Positions 849 through 31,503 of a DNA stretch of 42,211 bases are shown here, piece after piece (positions within the stretch are counted from its first letter, which is position 1; every line of letters begins with the position of its first letter). Source of the stretch: a virus; the IMG/VR virus record IMGVR_UViG_3300028843_000067, positions 1-42,211 of that record; one strand, 5' to 3'. The notes beneath the pieces are model-generated. The model was not told the DNA's origin. It saw nothing but the letters and a program-made list of their open reading frames with translations, and made no database searches. A program made the position numbers and the translations under genes.

Positions 849-3800
849 CTAAGTACAAACCACCACCAATTCCAAATGGATAGGCACAGGCTCAGACCAC
901 ATTTCACTTTCTATTTCAAACCTGTCTTCCATGTCGATAACACGGTGTGTGTTACCAAATTCGTCGACGTACATAAGTTCTTCGTCTATTTGGTCAAATT
1001 CAGGATTGGTTCCGTCAGTTTCTATTGCAGCTCTCAATTCATCAATTTCATCTATGAGAGCCTGTACTTTAGCTTTGTAATCTGCTTTATCTTTTAACGT
1101 AATATCGCCGGGCTTAGAAAAGTAACCCCCATCAAGTATTTCTTGTTTCTCAGCTTTTAACCTACCGATGTAACTAACAAGTTCTCCTTCATTCATAGCA
1201 TAACGTTTGCCTTCAAACAGTATGTATTCTGGAGGAGTCTCTACCCACTCGTCTGGGAATTCTTTTTTGAATTCTTGAGAAGACCTTCTCTTCCAGTATT
1301 TATTCTTGTCTGCTATATGCTGTCGTGCTCTATTCGCTCTTTTAAGAGACCTGTCTATTGCATCAAGCTTTTTACCCATGTTAATGCGTATGCGCTCACC
1401 TTCAGCATCGTTAACTAACTCAGCTAAAAGAGCTCGCTTTAATTCAAGTTCGTTCTGGGCTTCAGAAACTGTGAGTGCCGCTTTCCGTCTACCACTTGCA
1501 TCATCTGGATCGAATCCTTGAGTTATGCGCCCTTCGTTAAGATTTGATAACTCTTGCCTAATAGCCAGTAACTCTTTCTTGTCTTTGCTACGGTTAGCTT
1601 CTTCTATCTTCAGAGCCCGCTCCTCCAAAAGAAGAGTCTCTTCCTTATTAAGAGGGCCTTTAGCTCTCTCTTCTCTCAATTCTTTAAAGAATTCTCGGCG
1701 CAATTTAGGGTCATATAATTCTTGGTTAATACGCTCGGCTAATACGTTGGCTTTGGCTTTAAGCACTTTAATGCGAGCATTTCGGGCCGCCTTTGCTTGG
1801 TACTCTTTCAATTTACCAAGCGTCGTGTCCCAATCGTCCGGCCTCCACTCTCCTTCTTCAATCTGTTTCAGTTCAGCTTGAGCCGCTTTACGAGCTTCGT
1901 ATAACTCGGCGTTATGGAATGTTTGTGGCGTAGATTTCTTTTTGTCTCGTAACTTCTTACGCGATCCAGCGTGCACTTCCTTAAGGGCTTTAATTTCTAA
2001 GTCTAACTGGTCTAACTCGTCAGCGATCTCTGATATTTCTTTAATAGACAAACCTTTGTAATTGCCGGCTTTCTTTCGTTGTTCAGGGGTGAGCTTGTCA
2101 AGGTTGTCATTCCAATCTTTGATTTTTTGTTCAGTTCCTTCTAACTCGTGATGCCTGTCCAAAAGAGGCTTCATAACCACACGTTGGTCTTTACGCAAGT
2201 TCTTCATTTCAGGTGTGTTTTCGAAACTTGTTTCTTGTGTAGTGTGCAAATCAGCTTTTTCTATATTAGCCTTTAGCTCCTTAGTCCTATACCTGGTGCG
2301 CATGTTAAGTTCTAACATGGCTTCACCTTCGCCATCTAACAAAGCTTTGATTTTGTCTATTTGTATTTGTGTATTCGCTTTATTAGTCTTAGCAACTTTC
2401 ATCTGTTCGCGTATACGAAGAGGCTTGCGACCTTGATAATTAGACAACTCACCAAGTTCTCCGCTGTACGAATCTAATTCGTCTAGCATACCTTCAATCT
2501 TGTCAAGGTTTTTCATTCGGTTAACTTCATCAGGAGATACTTCTCTAGTGACGGTCACCGGAGGAGGGGCCTTTTCTTTTTCCCCAAGTGGCTTGTTACT
2601 AAGAGGCTCCTTTTCAGTTATCTTGTTCTTGCCACCTATCTTGAACGGCTCTTGAAGCCTAGCAGGAGGAGGAGTTTCGCCACTAAATGCGTGGCCTTGC
2701 ACCGCTCTGTCTACTACTTCCTCAAGCTTGCGTACTTTATCTCTAATAGACACGGTGCCATCACCGTAATCAGTAAGCTTCAATATATCAAGCTCACCTT
2801 CAAATTGTTCTAATACGTCAATGCTATCTTTGTGTTTACGAGACCATAACCTTATAGCTGCATGGTCTTTCATATTCGCCAAAGTAAAAGCATCACGCTC
2901 TTTAACAAGAGCCTCATATTTGACATCGTATTCTTCTTGGCTTAAAAGCCTGCCATCCACATCTGGTTCGTTTAGCGCGGATACTTTCCTACCAAAGTCT
3001 ACTTCAATAGCTAATAAGTTAGTATTCATGGTAGACTCTGAACGGTTTAAAAATGCATCCAGGGCCATTTCTTTTGTACGAGTAAGACTGTCAAATATTT
3101 GTTCTTCTTTTATTGTTTGTTTCTTAAGAGCATTGCCATGTCCAAAGAAAGCGGCGGTCCCAGTAAGTGTTGCATCAAACATACCGGATGCTGCAATATT
3201 CACGACAGAGTCCATGATTCCGTATTCACCCTCTGTCTCAGTCTGCCAAGACCAGATAAATGGTTCTATCACCGCTTGAGCAGCCGCGCCGCCGACGAAA
3301 GCTCGACGCGCCATTGCTGCTGTATATATGGCGCGTGAAGCGGCGACAGAACCGAATACTGGTGCGGCTACTACGCCGGCGATCAGTGCAGGAGGGTCTA
3401 GCGATCCAGCTACAAACCCACCTGCAAAACGAGCCGCGGTGCCCAAACCTGTAGAATGCTCTGCTGTTCTTTCTCTGGCTCGGCGCATTAAAGCCATCTC
3501 TTCGTTGCGTTCTTTTTCTAATTCCTTCATCGTAGGAATCAGCTCGTCTAAGTCAAGATTTTTGTTGGCCCATTCTGTAATGCCGTTATAATTGTATTTC
3601 CTTCCACCGCGACCAAACCTTGAATACGAATTTGCTACATCTTCAGGAATTTTGCCTTCGTCTATAAGGCTTTTAACATGTTTATCTCGTTCGTCTTCTT
3701 TTGTTTTGTGCAACAAAGACGAATACGAAGAGAACTCGTCTACGGTTTCGCTTACCCCAGCACCAAAGTTTTCCCATATACTAGAGTTTGGAACATAAGG

Positions 3801-7138: not shown

Positions 7139-7572
7139 TATCTAAGCCTCATTACATATTTGACGTCCAAAGGAGAGTATCCCCGTTTTTCTAGCGTTGT
7201 ACAAAAGTACGAGCCAAATCTCGCAGACTGTAAAATGAAATCACATTCTATAGCCGTCATGAAATCTTCGGCAAAAGACATCATGTGTTTAGCCCATTCT
7301 CTATGATCTGGTTTTACATAAAATGTAAGTTGATCCGCGTGTTTCTCGTCTTTGTTATGTGGGTAAGGGCCTACATAGAAAAGTAACAACCCTTGTATTT
7401 CGTCATCAATTCGCAAAACTATAGGTATCATATTATCAGATACATTGAGATACATATCCCAATCAATGTTAAGAACTTCAAACTGTCCAGTTAAAGCATG
7501 GTTCTCACTAATTAGAGAAGACACTTCTTCTATAAGGTCTTTGTTAAAAGCTTCATATTTAATAGACTTCAT
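7138..7572 (-). CDS. GNAT-like acetyltransferase fold protein, T7 gp13-like
   Basis: 144 residues. The order of secondary structure resembles a small GNAT domain: an N-terminal helix (SSLISENHALTGQ), strands with IQGLLLFYVGPYPH, DQLTFYVKPDHRE as the strand before the cofactor helix, and a C-terminal segment with SARFGSYFCTTLEKRGYSP, which resembles the usual GNAT ending where a neighbour outgrows its rank. In T7 the gene in this position (gp13) encodes a virion-associated protein needed for assembly, and many podoviruses carry a GNAT-like gene here. Whether it binds acetyl-CoA cannot be told. It overlaps the tail tubular protein B gene by ATGA. Confidence 0.55.
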   Translation of the reverse strand: MKSIKYEAFNKDLIEEVSSLISENHALTGQFEVLNIDWDMYLNVSDNMIPIVLRIDDEIQGLLLFYVGPYPHNKDEKHADQLTFYVKPDHREWAKHMMSFAEDFMTAIECDFILQSARFGSYFCTTLEKRGYSPLDVKYVMRLR

Positions 7573-19866: not shown

Positions 19867-19969
19867 CCCCAAGAAATCTGTTCTCAAAATTAAATGTACA
19901 ATGTATTCTACCCCAAGAAATCTGTTCTCAAAATTAAATGTACAATGTATTCTACCCCAAGAAATCTGT
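19867..19969. repeat. 44-bp tandem repeat, 2.3 copies, upstream of the first early gene
   Basis: Units 19867-19910 and 19911-19954 are identical, and 19955-19969 repeats the first 15 bases. Each unit contains TTCTCA, 17 bp, then TATTCT, which could be a weak sigma70 promoter, and a TGTACAATGTA segment that may be an operator. The array lies between the divergent terminase and early operons. Confidence 0.8.
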
Positions 19970-19978
19970 GCTACAGTT

Positions 19979-20357: not shown

Positions 20358-20376
20358 CACTTAAGGAGTAAGTAAG

Positions 20377-20619
20377 ATGTACAAAGAATTAAGAGTCAAT
20401 GACGACATCGCACAAGATGAAGTGAATGCAGTTATCACCATACTGAATTACATGGACGGCTTGGATAAAGAGCTGAAGATAAAGGATATAGCTGAACCAC
20501 TTAAGCTGTATCTAAGAGAACTGTATGAAGGTTGTGATGGTAAGGAGGATGATATCGCTGTACTAAGGTATCACGCACGGATCTCCAAATGGAGACTTGA
20601 TAACAGAAGGAGTAATTAA
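20377..20619 (+). CDS. Small early protein, copy 1 of a tandem duplicate
   Basis: 80 residues, acidic and helical (MYKELRVNDDIAQDEVNAVI at the start, DDIAVLRYHARISKWRLDNR near the end). AAGGAG lies 11 nt before the ATG. The neighbour at 20621 is about 70 percent identical by eye and has the same length, so the pair arose by a recent tandem duplication. The function is unknown. The gene lies in the early region where host-takeover proteins are usual. Confidence 0.7.
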   Translation: MYKELRVNDDIAQDEVNAVITILNYMDGLDKELKIKDIAEPLKLYLRELYEGCDGKEDDIAVLRYHARISKWRLDNRRSN

Positions 20620-20620
20620 G

Positions 20621-20863
20621 ATGTACGAAGAGTTAAGAGTTGATAATGACATCGCACAAGATGAAGTGAACGCAGTCATCACCATACTGAATTACTTGAT
20701 CGACGCTGATCAAGAGATGAAGGTCAAGGATCTTGTTGAACTGAACAAGCTGTATCTGCAAGAGCAGTATGACATGTGTAATGGCAAGAAGGATGATATC
20801 GCTGTACTAAGGTATCATGCATGGATCTCCAAATGGAGACTTGATAACAGAAGGAGTAAGTAG
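20621..20863 (+). CDS. Small early protein, copy 2 of a tandem duplicate
   Basis: 80 residues (MYEELRVDNDIAQDEVNAVI). It begins 1 nt after the stop of copy 1, with its own AGAAGGAG site inside the end of that gene. Differences from copy 1 cluster in the middle (residues 25-60), while the two ends are almost unchanged. The ATG at 20621 was chosen over 20597 because of the matching N-terminus and ribosome site. Confidence 0.7.
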   Translation: MYEELRVDNDIAQDEVNAVITILNYLIDADQEMKVKDLVELNKLYLQEQYDMCNGKKDDIAVLRYHAWISKWRLDNRRSK

Positions 20864-21029: not shown

Positions 21030-21190
21030 TGAACTGGGAAACCGTGCGTGAGGTCCATCACGAGGGCTGGTGGTGCGCGCCGCAATGGGAGAGGTCTCAC
21101 GGCCACGATAGGTCCACGACAGGCAGGCTGGTGTCAGCACGCAGGGCCGACTGCACAGAGCCCACAGTGTGACCAATGATGGTTCCAAAA
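21030..21190 (+). ncRNA. GC-rich non-coding island, candidate structured RNA (orientation uncertain)
   Basis: By hand count 21061-21180 is about 65 percent G+C, while the flanking DNA is strongly AT-rich. Small hairpins can be drawn: CGTGA/TCACG with a 6-nt loop (21048-21063), GCTG/CAGC and GCAG/CTGC (around 21126-21155). A closing pairing is possible between GGAAACC near 21038 and GGTTCC at 21181-21186. No coding frame in keeping with the neighbours is seen; a minus-strand open frame across it has unusual composition and no ribosome site. It lies directly upstream of the promoter at 21203. No known RNA family is recognised, and a foreign insertion is an alternative. Confidence 0.4.
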
Positions 21191-21202: not shown

Positions 21203-21236
21203 GTATACATTGGAATTAACATGTTATATAATATAC
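21203..21236 (+). promoter_or_regulatory. Phage promoter (GTATAC-N18-TATAATATAC)
   Basis: GTATAC 21203-21208, 18 bp, TATAATATAC 21227-21236. Predicted start 21239, which is the first base of a hairpin. It drives NPKR copy 2. Confidence 0.85.
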
Positions 21237-21238
21237 TT

Positions 21239-21260
21239 AATGAATAAATAATTATTCATT
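21239..21260 (+). promoter_or_regulatory. 5'-terminal mRNA hairpin with ATAA loop
   Basis: 9-bp perfect stem AATGAATAA / TTATTCATT, loop ATAA. It starts exactly 7 nt after TATAAT. The same hairpin occurs at 22603 and 27668. It probably protects the mRNA 5' end. Confidence 0.8.
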
Positions 21261-21282: not shown

Positions 21283-21540
21283 ATGGAATTATTAGTTAAC
21301 GCAGTGAAGATCACGTCCGATTGTACGCTTGAATACAAGGCTAACCCGAAACGCAGCGGTTGTAAAGCTTGGACTCGTTATGAAGGTTATCAAGCCGCAA
21401 CAACGATTGATGAGTACATGGAAATTACCACTGACCAAGATGGTAAGTATGGATACGCTGATCTACGTTATGACGAAGCGAAAGGATTCTTGAAAGTTAT
21501 GAACGCGGATGGTGAGCAGATTAACCTGAAAGAAGAGTAG
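21283..21540 (+). CDS. Small protein, NPKR family, copy 2
   Basis: 85 residues. Core NPKRSGCKAWTRYEGY, TTIDEYMEI, YADLRYDEAKGFLKV. It is closest to copy 1 at 20068 (same AWTRYE and DLRYD segments). It has its own promoter, 5' hairpin and a strong terminator, so it is a single-gene unit that should be strongly transcribed. Ribosome site AAGGAG, spacing about 8 nt. The function is unknown. Confidence 0.8.
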   Translation: MELLVNAVKITSDCTLEYKANPKRSGCKAWTRYEGYQAATTIDEYMEITTDQDGKYGYADLRYDEAKGFLKVMNADGEQINLKEE

Positions 21541-21804: not shown

Positions 21805-21831
21805 GCGCATCACACGTCTAACTTGATGCGC
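21805..21831 (-). terminator. Hairpin overlapping the end of the gene at 21810
   Basis: GCGCATCA / TGATGCGC, a perfect 8-bp stem. On the minus strand it spans the stop codon and is followed by TTTAGG. It is probably a weak terminator. Confidence 0.5.
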
Positions 21832-22358
21832 ATAAGTTTCTTACGGTTGATGTCTTCTAAGTCTTCAGCATTCTTCAACAACAAACCACTAACTTCAAGG
21901 TACATCTTCACAGCGCGTGGGTCTCCAGCTCTAGCTCCTTCAAATAGCTCACCACACACTTCGTTTAGGCCATATGCTTGACCATACATATAACAAGTCT
22001 CAAAGAGCAACTCTTCATTTGAGTCCATCTCATAATCCGCAAATACAAGGGCCTCGACGCTCTTCTTTGGTAAGCCCTTTTGTGCAGCGTCAAAGATATC
22101 TCTACACTGCCACAACGAGATAGACATGTTAGCATGCCATACATAATTCTGCTCAACGCTAGCTCCGTTGCCGCCGTCAACATCTCCTCCACCGTTAAGC
22201 CAAGACAAACTGATCTCACTCCTCTTGCCTTCATAATACCCAACGTCCGGTCCATCAGGCTTTCTTATACTGTGAGCAAGGTGCTCTTCCAATAGGCCAT
22301 ACTCGAACTGCATATTATCCGGCCTGTTCTCTTTGGTTAGCTTGACATACGTCGCCAT
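21810..22358 (-). CDS. Probable terminase small subunit
   Basis: 182 residues. The C-terminal third (ELFEGARAGDPRAVKMYLEVSGLLLK) matches the pattern seen in small terminase subunits (A...GDP.A.K.Y....G), which bind the packaging site. The acidic N-terminal part contains a Gly/Asp-rich loop (NGGGDVDGGNG) and shows no clear helix-turn-helix. It is the only minus-strand gene among the early genes and shares the 24-bp promoter element with the large terminase, which supports a late packaging role. The ribosome site is weak. Confidence 0.6.
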   Translation of the reverse strand: MATYVKLTKENRPDNMQFEYGLLEEHLAHSIRKPDGPDVGYYEGKRSEISLSWLNGGGDVDGGNGASVEQNYVWHANMSISLWQCRDIFDAAQKGLPKKSVEALVFADYEMDSNEELLFETCYMYGQAYGLNEVCGELFEGARAGDPRAVKMYLEVSGLLLKNAEDLEDINRKKLMRIKLDV

Positions 22359-22602: not shown

Positions 22603-22624
22603 AATGAATAAATAATTATTCATT
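22603..22624 (+). promoter_or_regulatory. 5'-terminal mRNA hairpin with ATAA loop
   Basis: Same sequence as the hairpin at 21239: 9-bp stem AATGAATAA / TTATTCATT, loop ATAA, beginning 7 nt after TATAAT. Confidence 0.8.
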
Positions 22625-23327: not shown

Positions 23328-23361
23328 GTATACACGTGCTATAAAATATGTTATAATATAC
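23328..23361 (+). promoter_or_regulatory. Phage promoter (GTATAC-N18-TATAATATAC)
   Basis: GTATAC 23328-23333, 18 bp, TATAATATAC 23352-23361. Predicted start 23364, directly before a hairpin. It drives the structured leader and the primase-helicase gene. Confidence 0.85.
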
Positions 23362-23364
23362 CTT

Positions 23365-23479
23365 ACAGATTTAATTAATCTGTGCAGCGCATCCTTGCTG
23401 GTTGGTAGAACGTATTCCTCGGTGCAACGCCGAGGCATACTTATAAACTGCAAGGACACACCAACACAAGGATAAAAGA
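23365..23479 (+). promoter_or_regulatory. Structured leader RNA with two mutually exclusive folds around the ribosome site
   Basis: A 7-bp hairpin starts the transcript (ACAGATT / AATCTGT, 23365-23383). A second hairpin has CCTCGG / CCGAGG (23417-23435) with GTAT / ATAC below it (23412 and 23437). ATCCTTG (23391-23397) can pair with CAAGGAT (23467-23473), which holds the ribosome site of the ORF at 23480; GTTGGT / ACCAAC (23401 and 23460) extends that stem. Alternatively TCCTTGC (23392-23398) pairs with GCAAGGA (23450-23456), leaving the ribosome site free. No known riboswitch family is recognised. Confidence 0.5.
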
Positions 23480-23569
23480 ATGAAATACGAATCACACCTA
23501 TTGAACGCTGAATTCAAGCAACCAGAGGTCAACGATATTATGAGCGAAGTAATGGGTCTCATAAAATGA
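23480..23569 (+). CDS. Short ORF upstream of and coupled to the primase-helicase
   Basis: 29 residues (begins MKYESHLLNAEFKQPEVNDI). AAGGA lies 7 nt before ATG. Its TGA overlaps the next ATG (ATGA), so ribosomes finishing this ORF can enter the primase gene, which lacks a good site of its own. It may be a leader peptide that passes the control of the structured RNA on to the replication gene. Confidence 0.6.
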   Translation: MKYESHLLNAEFKQPEVNDIMSEVMGLIK

Positions 23570-26217
23570 ACAAATCAGAGCAATATAACGCATTCATCAA
23601 ACATCTCCATCCCGATGCCGTAGGTACGGTAGCTTTAACAAGTAACGTTAAAGTACAAGGAAAAGAAGAAAAACAACTCAACTCTTTTCCAATGTCTAAC
23701 TTAGAGAATAGAGAAAAGTGGCAATCGACTCGCTTTCAAGATCATGGCTGTTTAGGCAAAGATCACACTCTTGTAATACTTGACATAGATGACCATAACG
23801 GAACTCTTACTAAAGATCAGATCACTGGCTTTAAGAAGGCATTTAACCTAACCAAAACTCTTGCTGTTAAGACTCCCTCTGGAAAGGGTCTCCAACTCTT
23901 GTACAAAGTACCTTCACATCTAAATGAGCGCCTTATGGGCAGGGGGTATTCATTTGCTGACTTTCCCAATGTTGAGGTGTTTGTATCGCTGAAGCCTAAT
24001 AAACAACGGCGTGTAGTACCGGGTAGCTCAAAGGCGGAAGGTGACTATACTCTTCTCTTAGACGCTCCTATTGCTGATCTGCCTATGCATATGTTAGAAG
24101 TATTACAGGTGCAATCAGAGACTCAGTTTGAGGATATAAGCAAAGATTCGACGAACTATATAGAGTATAACTCAAAGGGTAGTGAGGACAGTCAGCACAA
24201 CTTCAATGATGCTAGAGACTTCGTCAATCAAAAGATAGTTGATCCAGTCATGAATGGCGAAGAGTCCTTCTTTGCTAAAGGAAGAAATAATGCACTCTTT
24301 CAGCTGTCGAAAGACGTGGCTAAGTATAACTTGTCCAAAGAGAAAATTAGGCAGTTATACACAATTACTTTCTTTGGAATTCCTGCAATATGGGAAACTA
24401 ATGGCTTTGACGAAGAAGAAATAACTACTTGTATTGAGCAAGGTTATAATGCTATTAGAGAAGAGGGTAGAGCTACTCAAAGAGCTTCACGCTTAGTACC
24501 TTTTGAGAAGAACGACGAAGGTCACTACACAATAGACAAGAAGGATTATATTGCGAAGGCCGAACATGTACTGAAGTATGAGATCGGTAAGATACTTAGA
24601 GTAGACGATCTGAGAAGACAGTACTGGGAGTTAGTGATCAAAGATGGTAGCAACTATCATGTACCAAGAAAGAGACAAGTGGAGAGTTATAGAAGGAACT
24701 ATGAGCAGTCTGTAGCTAATGAAGAAGCTAATGACGTCTTCGTTGATTTAGAGATACTCAGAGAGAAGACTGAGACAGAGTTACATTGGGTACTGATGTC
24801 TGAGAAAGAGTTCAATGCGGTACACAAGTATCCTTCCGGTAAGGTAATGTGTAACCCATCGGGTAGAGACGAGTTTAATAGCAGAGTAATACACGCAAGA
24901 GTCGTACAGACCAAATTAGAATTGAGTACAAATATATGCGAGTATGGCACGTTCTATGCAGAACCGAAATCTGCAATCAGGATACTGAACAAATATACTC
25001 AAAAAGATAGATTGTTAGTTGAAAAATTGATAGACACTCTGTTAAAGAACGTAGTTGATCCAGATCACTTTGCAGAAGAAAAATGCTTTCTCTTGGATAG
25101 ATTCGCTAAGATTATACAGAACCCTCTAACAAGAACAGAGAACATACTCGTGTTACACGGACCGTATGGCTCGGGTAAGTCAATCTTCGTTAACTTAATG
25201 TCCGCTCTTCTCCCACTTAACTTTACATCAGTTATAACATCATCTGAAGAGCTAGACGTAAGGTTCACACACTGGAAGCCTTTAACTCACATCGATGATA
25301 TTGACCTTAACGAAGTAAGACCCTTAGCTTGGAATAGATTGAAGGCCTTGACTACTATGTCCAACGTTCCGTTAGAACGCAAAGGCGTTGACATGGTACT
25401 CACAGGTCACGGTACGAATATTAGTATAGGTACAAACACAGAGTTAGAAACCCCATCAGTTATACTCGGTGATCGTCGTACTACGTATGTGTCGTTTAAT
25501 GAGTACATAGACCAAGAAGAGGTTGCGGGCGAAGTAAAAGACGTATTGCAGCAGCTAAAGGACCACGACTTCCATTTATTAAGTGTATTAAAGACTATGC
25601 TATCGAGTAGAGATACTAGTGCTTTTAGTCCTAAATACAAGACTCATGCGCAGTTGGCTTTGGAAACACAGTCAGCTATGGAATCTAAGTTACTCATCGC
25701 GGTATTATTCGCTATTAAAAACTATGGATACATGTCTAATGACTTACAATTATTTGTGCCTAATGGAAGAGTACCTAAATTAGATATGGTAGCTTACTAC
25801 AATCATACGGTCAGAATTAGAGAAGGTTACACATTAGATATAGAAGAATATACGATAGAACAAGGTACTAAGCTCATAACACTCACTGAGAATATGCCGG
25901 ACAAAAAGAAGGTTAGGTCTTTGTTAAAGAAGACGTTTAGTGATAACCCATCAAGTTTAAAAGCATCTAAAATAAATGATAACATCCAAAGATCATTTGA
26001 CATGCATGTTCCTTTTATGAAAGATTGGATACGTTTCGCCGCTACTATAATGTATAATACTGAAGGTCTACACATTAAACTGATTGAAGAGTTTGGCTTT
26101 CAAGAACAATGGGACTGGGATGGTAAAACTAAGCCTGACGACCCCAGTTTAGGTTCTTTAAACCCGCTTGAGAATACTCCTTATGAGACTCTCAATCAGA
26201 GCGATGATGATTTTTAA
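23566..26217 (+). CDS. Primase-polymerase / SF3 helicase (replicative)
   Basis: 883 residues. The N-terminal part resembles the prim-pol (archaeo-eukaryotic primase) domain: LDIDDH at residues 72-77 supplies acidic residues, VKTPSGKGLQLLYKVP and KQRRVVPGSSKAEGDY follow. The C-terminal part is a P4/SF3-type helicase with Walker A GPYGSGKS at 532-539 and a Walker B-like HIDDIDL about 40 residues later. The enzyme should prime and unwind at the origin. It is coupled to the 29-residue ORF. Its fusion plan is common in podoviruses that lack a T7 gp4. Confidence 0.85.
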   Translation: MNKSEQYNAFIKHLHPDAVGTVALTSNVKVQGKEEKQLNSFPMSNLENREKWQSTRFQDHGCLGKDHTLVILDIDDHNGTLTKDQITGFKKAFNLTKTLAVKTPSGKGLQLLYKVPSHLNERLMGRGYSFADFPNVEVFVSLKPNKQRRVVPGSSKAEGDYTLLLDAPIADLPMHMLEVLQVQSETQFEDISKDSTNYIEYNSKGSEDSQHNFNDARDFVNQKIVDPVMNGEESFFAKGRNNALFQLSKDVAKYNLSKEKIRQLYTITFFGIPAIWETNGFDEEEITTCIEQGYNAIREEGRATQRASRLVPFEKNDEGHYTIDKKDYIAKAEHVLKYEIGKILRVDDLRRQYWELVIKDGSNYHVPRKRQVESYRRNYEQSVANEEANDVFVDLEILREKTETELHWVLMSEKEFNAVHKYPSGKVMCNPSGRDEFNSRVIHARVVQTKLELSTNICEYGTFYAEPKSAIRILNKYTQKDRLLVEKLIDTLLKNVVDPDHFAEEKCFLLDRFAKIIQNPLTRTENILVLHGPYGSGKSIFVNLMSALLPLNFTSVITSSEELDVRFTHWKPLTHIDDIDLNEVRPLAWNRLKALTTMSNVPLERKGVDMVLTGHGTNISIGTNTELETPSVILGDRRTTYVSFNEYIDQEEVAGEVKDVLQQLKDHDFHLLSVLKTMLSSRDTSAFSPKYKTHAQLALETQSAMESKLLIAVLFAIKNYGYMSNDLQLFVPNGRVPKLDMVAYYNHTVRIREGYTLDIEEYTIEQGTKLITLTENMPDKKKVRSLLKKTFSDNPSSLKASKINDNIQRSFDMHVPFMKDWIRFAATIMYNTEGLHIKLIEEFGFQEQWDWDGKTKPDDPSLGSLNPLENTPYETLNQSDDDF

Positions 26218-27667: not shown

Positions 27668-27689
27668 AATGAATAAATAATTATTCATT
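27668..27689 (+). promoter_or_regulatory. 5'-terminal mRNA hairpin with ATAA loop
   Basis: Third copy of the stem AATGAATAA / TTATTCATT with loop ATAA, again starting 7 nt after TATAAT. Confidence 0.8.
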
Positions 27690-28079: not shown

Positions 28080-28088
28080 GTTAGTTAA

Positions 28089-28116
28089 GAAGCCCTATTC
28101 GTAGGGCTTCTTTTTT
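28089..28116 (+). terminator. Rho-independent terminator with TTCG loop
   Basis: GAAGCCCTA / TAGGGCTTC, a 9-bp stem closed by the stable TTCG loop, then six T. The genes at 28143-30817 have no promoter of the phage class, so they depend on readthrough here or on antitermination. Confidence 0.9.
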
Positions 28117-28142: not shown

Positions 28143-28514
28143 ATGACACAGATTCAAGATGTAGAGTACCTTTATCGTAAGTTTAAGTTCCCTATTCCAA
28201 AAGAACCTAAAATGCTAGAAATTACTGAAATGGAACAGCGGCTTGCATTCTTAATGGAAGAGCTTACAGAGACTTCAGAGGCGGTATACAATAACGATAT
28301 TGAAGAAACAATTGATGGCCTTATAGACCTTGCATACGTTTGCTTTGGTACACTAGTTCTTATGGGTGTAAATACTGCGGCTCACTGGAATGAAGTGCAG
28401 CGCGCAAACCTTGAAAAAGAACGCATCGTAAATGGTGGTAAAAGATCAATGCGCTATGATCTTACAAAACCTAAAGGATGGAGACCCCCAAATCACAAGG
28501 AAATACTAGAATGA
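28143..28514 (+). CDS. MazG/dCTPase-fold nucleotide pyrophosphohydrolase
   Basis: 123 residues. The all-alpha NTP pyrophosphatase motifs are present: EELTE at 39-43 and the DGLIDLAYV segment with D59 and D62. The C-terminal KPKGWRPPNHKEI is usual in this phage group. Members include MazG, dimeric dUTPases and dCTP pyrophosphatases. In this neighbourhood (hydroxymethylase, kinase, glucosyltransferase) a dCTPase role, equivalent to T4 gp56, is the likely one: it would remove dCTP so that unmodified cytosine is not used. The substrate is inferred, not shown by the motif. The TGA overlaps the kinase ATG. Confidence 0.78.
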   Translation: MTQIQDVEYLYRKFKFPIPKEPKMLEITEMEQRLAFLMEELTETSEAVYNNDIEETIDGLIDLAYVCFGTLVLMGVNTAAHWNEVQRANLEKERIVNGGKRSMRYDLTKPKGWRPPNHKEILE

Positions 28515-29014
28515 AAAAAGTAATTATGGTAGAAGGACCAGATGGAGGAGGTAAATCAACTCTAATAAGCAAAATACATAGAGATGGCGTGGATAACGGC
28601 GATCTCATATTTCATAATGGATTGTACCCCACTCCAGATGACGCGTATTCGAGTTATTTAGGACAACTAAATGCATTTGAAGAAGGGGCTTGTGACCGTC
28701 TTATCCTAGATCGCAGCGTTATTAGCCAGATGATATATGGCGCTGTAATGCGCAATGAACCATTAAATTATGAAATGACTGATAAAATACAAGCTAAGTT
28801 CTTACAGTTAAATGGTATTATAATATTGTGTTTGCCTCCATTAAAAGTGTGTATGCAAAACTGGAGGGCTAGAAACGCACAGAATAAAGAATATGTAACT
28901 AAGTCAAAAAAGATGATCCAAATATATGGGCTTTATTCTGCTGTATCAGAAGCATTTAATTTAATAAAATATGATTACACTACCGATGAGGTGCCAAATG
29001 AACTCTACCGCTAA
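28511..29014 (+). CDS. Deoxynucleoside monophosphate kinase (thymidylate kinase-like)
   Basis: 167 residues from ATG 28511, coupled by ATGA to the previous gene. The P-loop is GPDGGGKST at residues 9-17. CDRLILDRSVISQMIYG has the D-R-S motif of thymidylate kinase-like enzymes. A basic lid region follows (WRARNAQNKEYV). In T4 the dNMP kinase gp1 phosphorylates hydroxymethyl-dCMP, which fits the next gene. It overlaps the hydroxymethylase gene by 17 bases. Confidence 0.8.
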   Translation: MKKVIMVEGPDGGGKSTLISKIHRDGVDNGDLIFHNGLYPTPDDAYSSYLGQLNAFEEGACDRLILDRSVISQMIYGAVMRNEPLNYEMTDKIQAKFLQLNGIIILCLPPLKVCMQNWRARNAQNKEYVTKSKKMIQIYGLYSAVSEAFNLIKYDYTTDEVPNELYR

Positions 29015-29726
29015 CATTATATATTTAGATTCATTACAGAAAGTACTCACAAGTGGGATAGAATCTTGTCCAAGAGGAATCAAAACAAAAGAAATCCTCA
29101 ACTTAGTTTCTTCTATAAATATGGAATACCCTATTGTAAGTATCCCTGATCGTAAAATTGGCAAAAAGTTTATGTTTGCGGAAGCTTACTGGATTACTCA
29201 AGGCTCTCCTTTGGTAGAAGAAATTTCGCCATATAACAAGCATATAGCTAAGTTCTCTGACGATGGTTACATATTTAATGGGGCCTATGGTCCTATGTTT
29301 AATAACCAATTTAACACTGTGGTTAATACCCTAAATGACGACAAAGATTCTCGTCAAGCTGTATGTACCATATGGCACCCAAATCCTGTAAAGTCTAAAG
29401 ATCATAAATGCACTATAATGCTTCACTGGATGATACGGAATGGCCGACTAAATTGTACAGTATATATGCGGTCTAACGATTTATGGCTAGGAAGAGCTTA
29501 CGATATTTTTAACTTCACAATGATGACTGTAAAAGTATTAACGCATCTTTCTCATGACCTAAAGTTAGGCGAACTTACTTTAATAGCGGGCAGCGCCCAT
29601 GTATATGAAACTAATTACTTAGAAGCTAGGAAGTTAATAGACTCTCCGTTTATAGATACAAAATTACCTGATTTCCATAATTGGAAAGAAGCCACAAACT
29701 TTCTTTTGATGATGAGGGACCTATAA
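28998..29726 (+). CDS. Thymidylate synthase-fold enzyme, probable dCMP hydroxymethylase
   Basis: 242 residues from ATG 28998 (GAGG upstream). Aligning by eye with E. coli ThyA gives catalytic Cys at C138 (KCTIMLHW), the R-S-x-D segment MRSND, and the HxY pair at H201 and Y203. The Asn of ThyA that recognises uracil (N177, in PFNIAS) is D169 here (AYDIF). Asp at this site is the mark of dCMP hydroxymethylases such as T4 gp42, whose MRSND and CT motifs are also matched. Length is near gp42 (246). A plain thymidylate synthase or dCMP methylase remains possible. Its stop overlaps the glucosyltransferase ATG. Confidence 0.78.
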   Translation: MNSTANIIYLDSLQKVLTSGIESCPRGIKTKEILNLVSSINMEYPIVSIPDRKIGKKFMFAEAYWITQGSPLVEEISPYNKHIAKFSDDGYIFNGAYGPMFNNQFNTVVNTLNDDKDSRQAVCTIWHPNPVKSKDHKCTIMLHWMIRNGRLNCTVYMRSNDLWLGRAYDIFNFTMMTVKVLTHLSHDLKLGELTLIAGSAHVYETNYLEARKLIDSPFIDTKLPDFHNWKEATNFLLMMRDL

Positions 29727-30817
29727 TGAAAATTGCTGTTTGCAAAATTGGAGCTAACATAACGTTTAGCAATAATAACAAGTCAGCGGCTAATGCTGAT
29801 ATTCTTTACTTCTTACGTCAACTTGATATCGGAGCCCATGATGTCACGATCTGTACACACAAGACTAGAAACACAGCAATACCAGCTCGACTTGCTTTCA
29901 AAGAAATACAACAGATTACTGATTTTAACGATTTTGACCGTGTCCTTATCTTTAATGGCAGTGTTAATTTTTATGGTGGTGCTATCGATGAAAACTTGTT
30001 AGCTCTATATAGAGCCATGTCAAAGACCGACAAGCCGTTAATATGGGTTAACACTGATGGGGCTCTTGTATTTAGACAACTGTGGCCTATGATAGCTAAT
30101 AGAGAATGGGCTAAAGACTTTAATAAATGGGAATTTCATATAGATCCTAAACAAGTTGTCTATCTTACTCAAGGTGCTAACCTACATAAAGTGCGCAAGA
30201 TGCTAGACGATCCAAAGAAGAAAGCCATATCTCCCGCATCATTGATTCATTATCCTCTTTACCAAACTATATTAGCAAAGCATGAGAAGTTCTTTGCAAG
30301 GAATACTAATGATTTCGTGACTAGGCCTTTTGATCTTGCATTTGGTGGCTACACTCGCAATACACATAAACGCAAGAAAATAGAGCACTACTACAATGAT
30401 CCAAGGTTTAGGAACCTTCTCTTTGGAAATCTTCGTGGAGTCAAAGCTCCAAATGCCAAGTTGAGAGCAAAGTGTAGTTACAGAGCTTTTGTAGAAACTA
30501 TGATGTATTCTAAAGCTACCGTTATCATCGGCGACGAGTATTACAACGATAACTTCTTTACGCTAAGAATGTACGAAGCTCTGTTAGCTGACAACATTAT
30601 ATTCATAGACAAAGAGCTTGATCCAAGATATGAGTTCTACAACAAGAATTACTTTTACGAGTACTACAAAGAGTTCTATGTTAAGAATTCTAATGACATT
30701 AAAATCAATGGACGTATGTATAGGAGGTTTACCGACTTTAAGAAAGACATCTTTAAGAAGTATGATTACGACAGAGAAAGTGCTTATTTAGTTTCAATTT
30801 TGGAACATATAAATTAA
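29726..30817 (+). CDS. bgt: DNA beta-glucosyltransferase (T4 BGT homologue)
   Basis: 363 residues (T4 enzyme 351). Long stretches correspond to T4 Bgt: FDRVLIFNGSVNFYGG matches YDRLIVVNSSINFFGG, QLWPMIANREWA matches QSWPNVKNRPWA, and VIIGDEYYNDNFFTLR matches LIIGDKNYNDNFITLR. Key T4 residues are kept: D100 as D111, R191 as R211, R269 as R281, E272 as E284; E22 becomes D25. These bind UDP-glucose and the flipped base. The enzyme should add glucose to 5-hydroxymethylcytosine in phage DNA. ATG overlaps the upstream TAA. Alignment was done from memory of the T4 sequence. Confidence 0.88.
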   Translation: MKIAVCKIGANITFSNNNKSAANADILYFLRQLDIGAHDVTICTHKTRNTAIPARLAFKEIQQITDFNDFDRVLIFNGSVNFYGGAIDENLLALYRAMSKTDKPLIWVNTDGALVFRQLWPMIANREWAKDFNKWEFHIDPKQVVYLTQGANLHKVRKMLDDPKKKAISPASLIHYPLYQTILAKHEKFFARNTNDFVTRPFDLAFGGYTRNTHKRKKIEHYYNDPRFRNLLFGNLRGVKAPNAKLRAKCSYRAFVETMMYSKATVIIGDEYYNDNFFTLRMYEALLADNIIFIDKELDPRYEFYNKNYFYEYYKEFYVKNSNDIKINGRMYRRFTDFKKDIFKKYDYDRESAYLVSILEHIN

Positions 30818-30860: not shown

Positions 30861-30884
30861 ATGATAAAAAATAATTTTTATCAT
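30861..30884 (+). promoter_or_regulatory. 5'-terminal mRNA hairpin with ATAA loop, different stem
   Basis: 10-bp stem ATGATAAAAA / TTTTTATCAT with loop ATAA. The stem sequence differs from the other three copies while pairing and loop are conserved, which is covariation evidence for RNA structure. Confidence 0.82.
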
Positions 30885-30903: not shown

Positions 30904-31503
30904 ATGTTAAATATGAAAACGCTCGCCGAAAAATTCTCGGTAAAACCCACAATTGGTGGACCCACTCGCTGTAAGACTCCTGTCTTTCGTGCTTCTTACT
31001 CCTTTGTACATGAGCCAAGAGAAACTCCGAATGGTGACCTTAAATACATGACTTGTATGATCTTTGACCAAGATGATGCTAAGTTGTTAAAGCCAGTTGC
31101 CCAAGCTATTGTCAATGCATGCGCCACTAAGTTTGGCGCAGATATTGGCAAATGGCCTAAGAACCTCAAATGCCCTCTTCGTGATGGCGATGAGGAACGG
31201 GATAACCCCGAGTATGAAAATACTTACTTCATGAACGCCGGTAATAAGAATAAGCCCGGTATTGTTGACCGTAATGTTCAGCCAATCACTTCAGCTGAAG
31301 AGTTTTACTCTGGTTGCTATGCCCGTGCATCGTTGAGTTTCTATGCATACGATGTTAAGGGTAATAAAGGTGTTGGTACGGGGCTTAATAACCTCATGTT
31401 TTGGGAAGATGGAGAACGACTCGACGGCGCTGTGAAGGCCGAAGACGACTTTAAAGACTTCGCAGAAGCTAAGACTGAAGAAGAAGAAGAAGGTATATTC
31501 TAA
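30904..31503 (+). CDS. Single-stranded DNA-binding protein (DUF2815 type)
   Basis: 199 residues. The pattern RCKTPVFRASYSFVHEPRE, YMTCMIFD..D..LL, WPKNLKCPLRDGDEE and ASLSFYAYDVKGNKGVGTGLNNL is that of phage DUF2815 proteins, the gp2.5-like OB-fold SSBs. The C-terminus is strongly acidic and ends EEEEEGIF, which resembles the acidic aromatic-ended tails used by SSBs to bind partner proteins. AGGAA precedes the ATG; a second ATG follows three codons later. The polymerase ATG follows its stop directly. Confidence 0.85.
   Translation: MLNMKTLAEKFSVKPTIGGPTRCKTPVFRASYSFVHEPRETPNGDLKYMTCMIFDQDDAKLLKPVAQAIVNACATKFGADIGKWPKNLKCPLRDGDEERDNPEYENTYFMNAGNKNKPGIVDRNVQPITSAEEFYSGCYARASLSFYAYDVKGNKGVGTGLNNLMFWEDGERLDGAVKAEDDFKDFAEAKTEEEEEGIF

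Follow-up and report, generated by a model that had tools for sequence, protein, structure and literature searches.

A predicted structured leader, possibly a translational switch, precedes the primase-helicase gene of a phage without close relatives

Results

Gene content of the window and the primase locus

The window analyzed here is a virus record of 42,211 bases, taken at its full length, which carries genes for a portal protein (head-tail connector), a terminase, a major capsid protein, a family A polymerase, an SSB, a ligase, and nucleases. Because a head-tail connector, a terminase, a capsid protein, and a set of replication genes are encoded, we regard the phage as podovirus-like. The best match of its portal protein among deposited phages was at 43%, and the phage is without close relatives among them.

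Several features away from the primase locus were noted. Consecutive PRA-PH/MazG-like, weakly thymidylate-kinase-like, thymidylate-synthase-family, and T4-type β-glucosyltransferase genes occupy positions 28143-30817, a gene row that suggests glucosylated hydroxymethyl-pyrimidine DNA. A 44-bp tandem repeat (2.3 copies, 19867-19972) lies near a switch of gene direction and of GC skew, and this region is a candidate origin or control region. At 20363-20850, a 244-bp tandem duplication (83%) with a small open reading frame (ORF) represents a duplicated small gene. GC-rich islands with no obvious gene were seen at 21031-21180 of the window and at 60-250 of the related sequence L007 (67 and 76%, respectively, over 120 nt), both upstream of homologous-looking small genes (21283-21540 in the window and 384-647 in L007); the island in the window had no Rfam match and folded no better than shuffled sequences. 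Further, the leader (22490-22359) of the minus-strand gene at 21810-22358 is closed by GGATGGG/CCCATCC from its predicted +1 and is well folded (z -2.9).

The features of the primase locus are collected in Table 1. The large gene product matches PF19263 (4.6e-10) and the DNA primase family phrog_1156 (3.9e-15), and a profile built from four relatives found the Primase chains 6k9c/6k9e (2e-12). We take these chains, from general knowledge and the discussion of NrS-1 in PMC10516667, to be the helicase domain of the NrS-1 phage polymerase. The DUF5906, primase-family, and 6k9c/6k9e matches together make primase-helicase a fair name. The ORF that follows the leader has the 29 residues given in a preliminary description of this DNA, which had also called it coupled to the primase-helicase; the ATGA overlap fits such coupling, which would follow from the layout of the two genes. 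The Shine-Dalgarno (SD) sequence AAGGA stands seven bases upstream of the 29-codon ORF, and its duplex with the 16S tail was computed at -5.2 kcal/mol, compared with -3.1 kcal/mol before the primase ATG.

Table 1. Features of the primase locus, and the SSB gene, in window coordinates
Feature	Position	Strand	Remarks
Phage promoter TATACA-17-TATAAT	23329-23357	+	TG directly before the -10 box; consensus scan
5'-terminal hairpin ACAGATT-TAATT-AATCTGT	23364-23383	+	Begins at the predicted +1
Shared switch strand ATCCTTGC (anti-SD)	23391-23398	+	Pairs through 23392-98 in fold B and 23391-97 in fold A
GTTGGT	23401-23406	+	Partner in fold A is ACCAAC (23460-65); pseudoknot on fold B possible
Middle hairpin	23412-23440	+	Common to both folds; -16.8 kcal/mol
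GCAAGGA competitor strand	23450-23456	+	SD left open (fold B)
ACCAAC	23460-23465	+	Partner of GTTGGT
CAAGGAT	23467-23473	+	Contains SD AAGGA (23468-23472); hidden in fold A
29-aa ORF	23480-23569	+	29 codons, ATG at 23480; stop overlaps primase start as ATGA; putative coding
Primase-helicase gene	23566-26217	+	883 aa, ATG at 23566; PrimPol-like N terminus, DUF5906/SF3-type helicase
SSB gene	30904-31503		Phage SSB, Enc34 type, PF10991

A hairpin at the transcript start recurs in the phage group

The promoter places the predicted transcript start near 23364-23365, which gives a leader of ~115 nt up to the 29-codon ORF. Matching promoter motifs were found at 21204, 22568, and 30826 of the window and in related phages. 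We rejected an arrangement of the T4 gene e type, in which the 5' arm contains the promoter, because here both arms lie downstream of it. The 5'-terminal hairpin begins 6-7 nt after the -10 box and thus with the first bases of the transcript, the +1 itself being predicted. When promoter-like sites with a good -35 box were collected from the window, L007, L020, and L022, hairpin stems stood at +1 after 12 of the 25, compared with 6.4% of background positions with comparable AT content (P about 1e-8); a stem was counted if it had 7-11 pairs without interruption, G-U included, and began 5-9 bases beyond the -10 box. The stem sequences differ from phage to phage, including near the SSB gene. We conclude that the first hairpin of the leader belongs to a type of mRNA-end element that is general in this phage group, and this is the firmest part of the analysis. 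Its likeliest role would be to stabilize or protect the end of the mRNA, since ompA-type messages have analogous protective stem-loops (PMC7509114) and the T4 gene 32 message an analogous 5' hairpin (PMC8948821). The rule also offers a simple guide to transcript ends in phages without experimental data. Further +1 hairpins lie in the window at 21239-21260, 22603-22624, 27668-27689, and 30861-30882 and, in the relatives, at 7405 and 11092 of L007, 11126 of L020, and 3137 and 10957 of L022.

Two nearly isoenergetic predicted folds would expose or hide the SD

The preliminary description had proposed that ATCCTTG (23391-23397) pairs either with GCAAGGA (23450-23456) or with the ribosome site CAAGGAT (23467-23473), with a stable hairpin (23417-23435) in between. 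All three strands are where it placed them, and the hairpin is present and could be refined to 12 bp with one mismatch (Table 1). In the open fold B, TCCTTGC (23392-98) forms 7 bp with GCAAGGA; in the closed fold A, the 7 bp of ATCCTTG:CAAGGAT are extended by 6 bp of GTTGGT:ACCAAC, a block not among the pairings first described, to give 13 bp. The SD is open in the fold of minimum energy. Constrained folding gave -36.4 kcal/mol for the open and -35.8 kcal/mol for the closed fold, so that forcing the closed pairing costs 0.6 kcal/mol, and at 37 °C the open-type helix had a predicted occupancy of about 0.74, the closed helix one of about 0.24. Across four parameter sets and four dangle models, the closed fold differed from the open by -2.2 to +1.7 kcal/mol, and the order of the two could reverse. 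The folds are thus nearly equal whichever model is used, and which of them wins is model-dependent. Mutually exclusive folds that expose and hide the SD, as in translational riboswitches, are therefore predicted by constrained folding under the four parameter sets. This part of the earlier proposal stands; that the leader is a regulated cis-acting switch is possible, with the chance level of the switch pairing, described below, at p about 0.02.

For transcripts of increasing length, fold B was the minimum from end position 23456 onward. The direct path from fold B to fold A, with pseudoknots ignored, passes a saddle at -24.8 kcal/mol, a barrier of about 11.6 kcal/mol above B, which suggests slow exchange between the folds. 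The probability of the closed helix was 0.20 at 10 °C, 0.24 at 37 °C, and 0.17 at 55 °C. The models thus do not support an RNA thermometer, and we rejected this candidate, as predicted SD occlusion barely moves over 10-55 °C and is not released by warming.

The predicted structure is non-random, and the switch pairing is weakly so

Compared with dinucleotide shuffles, the whole leader scored z = -4.07. None of 1000 shuffles of positions 23384-23466, middle hairpin included, equaled the stability of both the open and the closed fold, a result that owes much to the middle hairpin because both folds share it. When both hairpins were kept and only the flanks shuffled, 1.9-2.4% of the sequences matched both folds (2.1% with Turner 1999 parameters; p about 0.02). 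The two folds fell within 1 kcal/mol of each other in 12% of shuffles, and, by the weaker of the two folds, the leader ranked third among the 37 SD-preceded starts in the window. Overall, we conclude that a structured leader is, as a prediction, well supported and clearly non-random and that, in these models, the alternative switch pairing exceeds chance weakly.

Leaders of related primase genes differ

At gathering threshold, Rfam returned nothing relevant in the window, L022, L020, or L007, and a search with the leader at E up to 10 gave only an irrelevant DnaX match. A DNA search of a phage collection with the leader and the start of the primase gene found no homologue. The exact DNA pattern of the 3' half of the switch had five matches in IMG/VR, of which four are one unrelated sequence and one is a repeat-rich stretch, and these were judged to be chance. 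Protein scans for closer relatives with the portal, helicase, polymerase, SSB, and primase, as single and as aligned sequences, led to no homologous leader; the best relatives stood at 55-57% for the helicase and at 22-26% for the primase. The nearest replication modules are those of L022 (helicase 57%, primase 26%) and of L020/L021 and L007/L008 (helicase 55-56%, primase 22-25%).

In L020 and L007, an ORF of 54 or 56 codons, by inspection unrelated in sequence to the 29-aa ORF of the window, is joined to the primase gene as TAAATG, and the primase leaders are short, essentially unstructured, and fold no better than shuffles. The primase leader of L022 is structured and has an anti-SD, is different from that of the window, and hides its SD less than most shuffles do. 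We rejected homology between the two, as only TGCAGCG before the anti-SD TCCT is common to them, MAFFT gave no sensible alignment, and occlusion of the L022 SD does not exceed that in shuffles. Within the L022 leader, at 3194-3235, a hairpin (AGCCAAGG..CCTTGGCT) followed by ACTTTTTG looks like an intrinsic terminator or attenuator. Because the leader of the window is known from one sequence and no relative was found that keeps the choice of folds, a working switch is possible rather than established.

Discussion

We propose that this region forms the 5' leader of a transcript dedicated to the primase, with a 5' hairpin that probably protects it. As computed, the 23392:23450 helix would form first during transcription and leave the SD open; once the ribosome site has been transcribed, the shared strand may refold into the 13-bp helix that hides the SD, at nearly equal energy and over a barrier of about 12 kcal/mol when pseudoknots are ignored. 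The likeliest effect would be to limit how much of the 29-aa ORF is translated, or to set when, and, through the ATGA coupling, to do the same for the primase; a trans-acting factor may bias the balance of the folds. The recurrent promoter with its +1 hairpin, the exact complementarities, the ORF overlap, the near-equal folds, their stability relative to shuffles, the early minimum of fold B, the computed barrier, and the better SD before the 29-aa ORF support such a bistable leader; the p of about 0.02 given the hairpins, the 12% of shuffles with folds equally close in energy, the lack of a leader homologue, the differing leaders of relatives, and the lack of an Rfam family argue against a bistable switch. 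On balance, we tentatively give somewhat less than an even chance to a role of the alternative SD pairing in the expression of the primase, and a response of the leader to a specific signal would be much less probable than that. The structured leader is well predicted, and a translational switch is a plausible reading of it. If the switch is real, it would be a compact control point on the start of DNA phage replication, exerted through the coupled 29-aa ORF. The preliminary description had already linked the leader to the start of replication; a primase gene does lie downstream, and the link to replication onset is drawn from that gene alone.

A static structured leader, in which the hairpins protect the mRNA 5' end, the middle stem spaces or slightly dampens the ribosome site, and the pairing that hides the SD arises by chance from the repetition of the SD-like CAAGGA, is a substantial possibility, only a little less probable than the switch. 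The group-wide rule of 5'-terminal hairpins, the p of about 0.02 of the switch pairing with the hairpins kept, and the L020 and L007 leaders without this pairing all agree with it; against it stand GTTGGT:ACCAAC and the seventh base pair, additional blocks of complementarity that bring the closed fold to parity with the open one.

We consider it unlikely that the leader is a protein-binding translational operator, at which the SSB or the primase binds the folded or pseudoknotted RNA to repress the primase operon, much as T4 gp32 acts on the pseudoknot of its own leader (PMC3014915). An Enc34-type SSB is indeed encoded, and a candidate pseudoknot of the 23392:23450 helix with GTTGGT:ACCAAC can be drawn from complementarity alone; however, the leader precedes the primase gene and not the SSB gene, and relatives have no homologous leader. 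Similarly improbable is an undescribed phage RNA switch with competing SD folds, possibly with a pseudoknot, whose state depends on a metabolite or on a replication protein and which times the primase and replication onset.

A small-molecule riboswitch of an undescribed class is very unlikely: a predicted bistable expression platform overlaps the SD, and phages can carry riboswitches (PMC9004378), but no aptamer-like conserved core is recognizable from one sequence and the Rfam searches described above gave no relevant match. Equally improbable is antitermination through a put-like element, in which the nascent RNA would modify RNA polymerase in the manner of HK022 putL, itself situated just downstream of a promoter (PMC9378689). 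Two stem-loops, together about 90 nt long, do directly follow the promoter, but a single plus-strand terminator-like site was found downstream (28087-28112), and later genes have promoters of their own.

A bistable leader at this locus would belong with the known SD-occluding bistable leaders rather than to a new class. Among the closest are metastable or bistable mRNA leaders that sequester the SD, for example those of hok and aapA3 (PMC6733600). As in these, the SD has an anti-SD strand as a potential partner, and access to it is altered by competing folds that form at different points in transcription; unlike in these, the early fold is predicted to be open and the late fold closed, a replication gene is concerned, and the case here is known by computation. 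In T4 and T2, a pseudoknot in the gene 32 leader is an autogenous operator; that of T4 lies 67 nt upstream of the start codon and nucleates gp32 on an A+U-rich unstructured stretch (PMC3014915). Gene 32 likewise is a phage replication gene, and the leader of the window may also form a pseudoknot, but here the structure reaches the SD itself. With HK022 putRNA, the leader shares two stem-loops immediately after a phage promoter, a likeness of layout only. Finally, as in the ompA and T4 gene 32 messages, the transcript begins with a hairpin; unlike in those cases, such hairpins here recur across four related genomes, after about half of the phage promoters, and their stabilizing role is a prediction.
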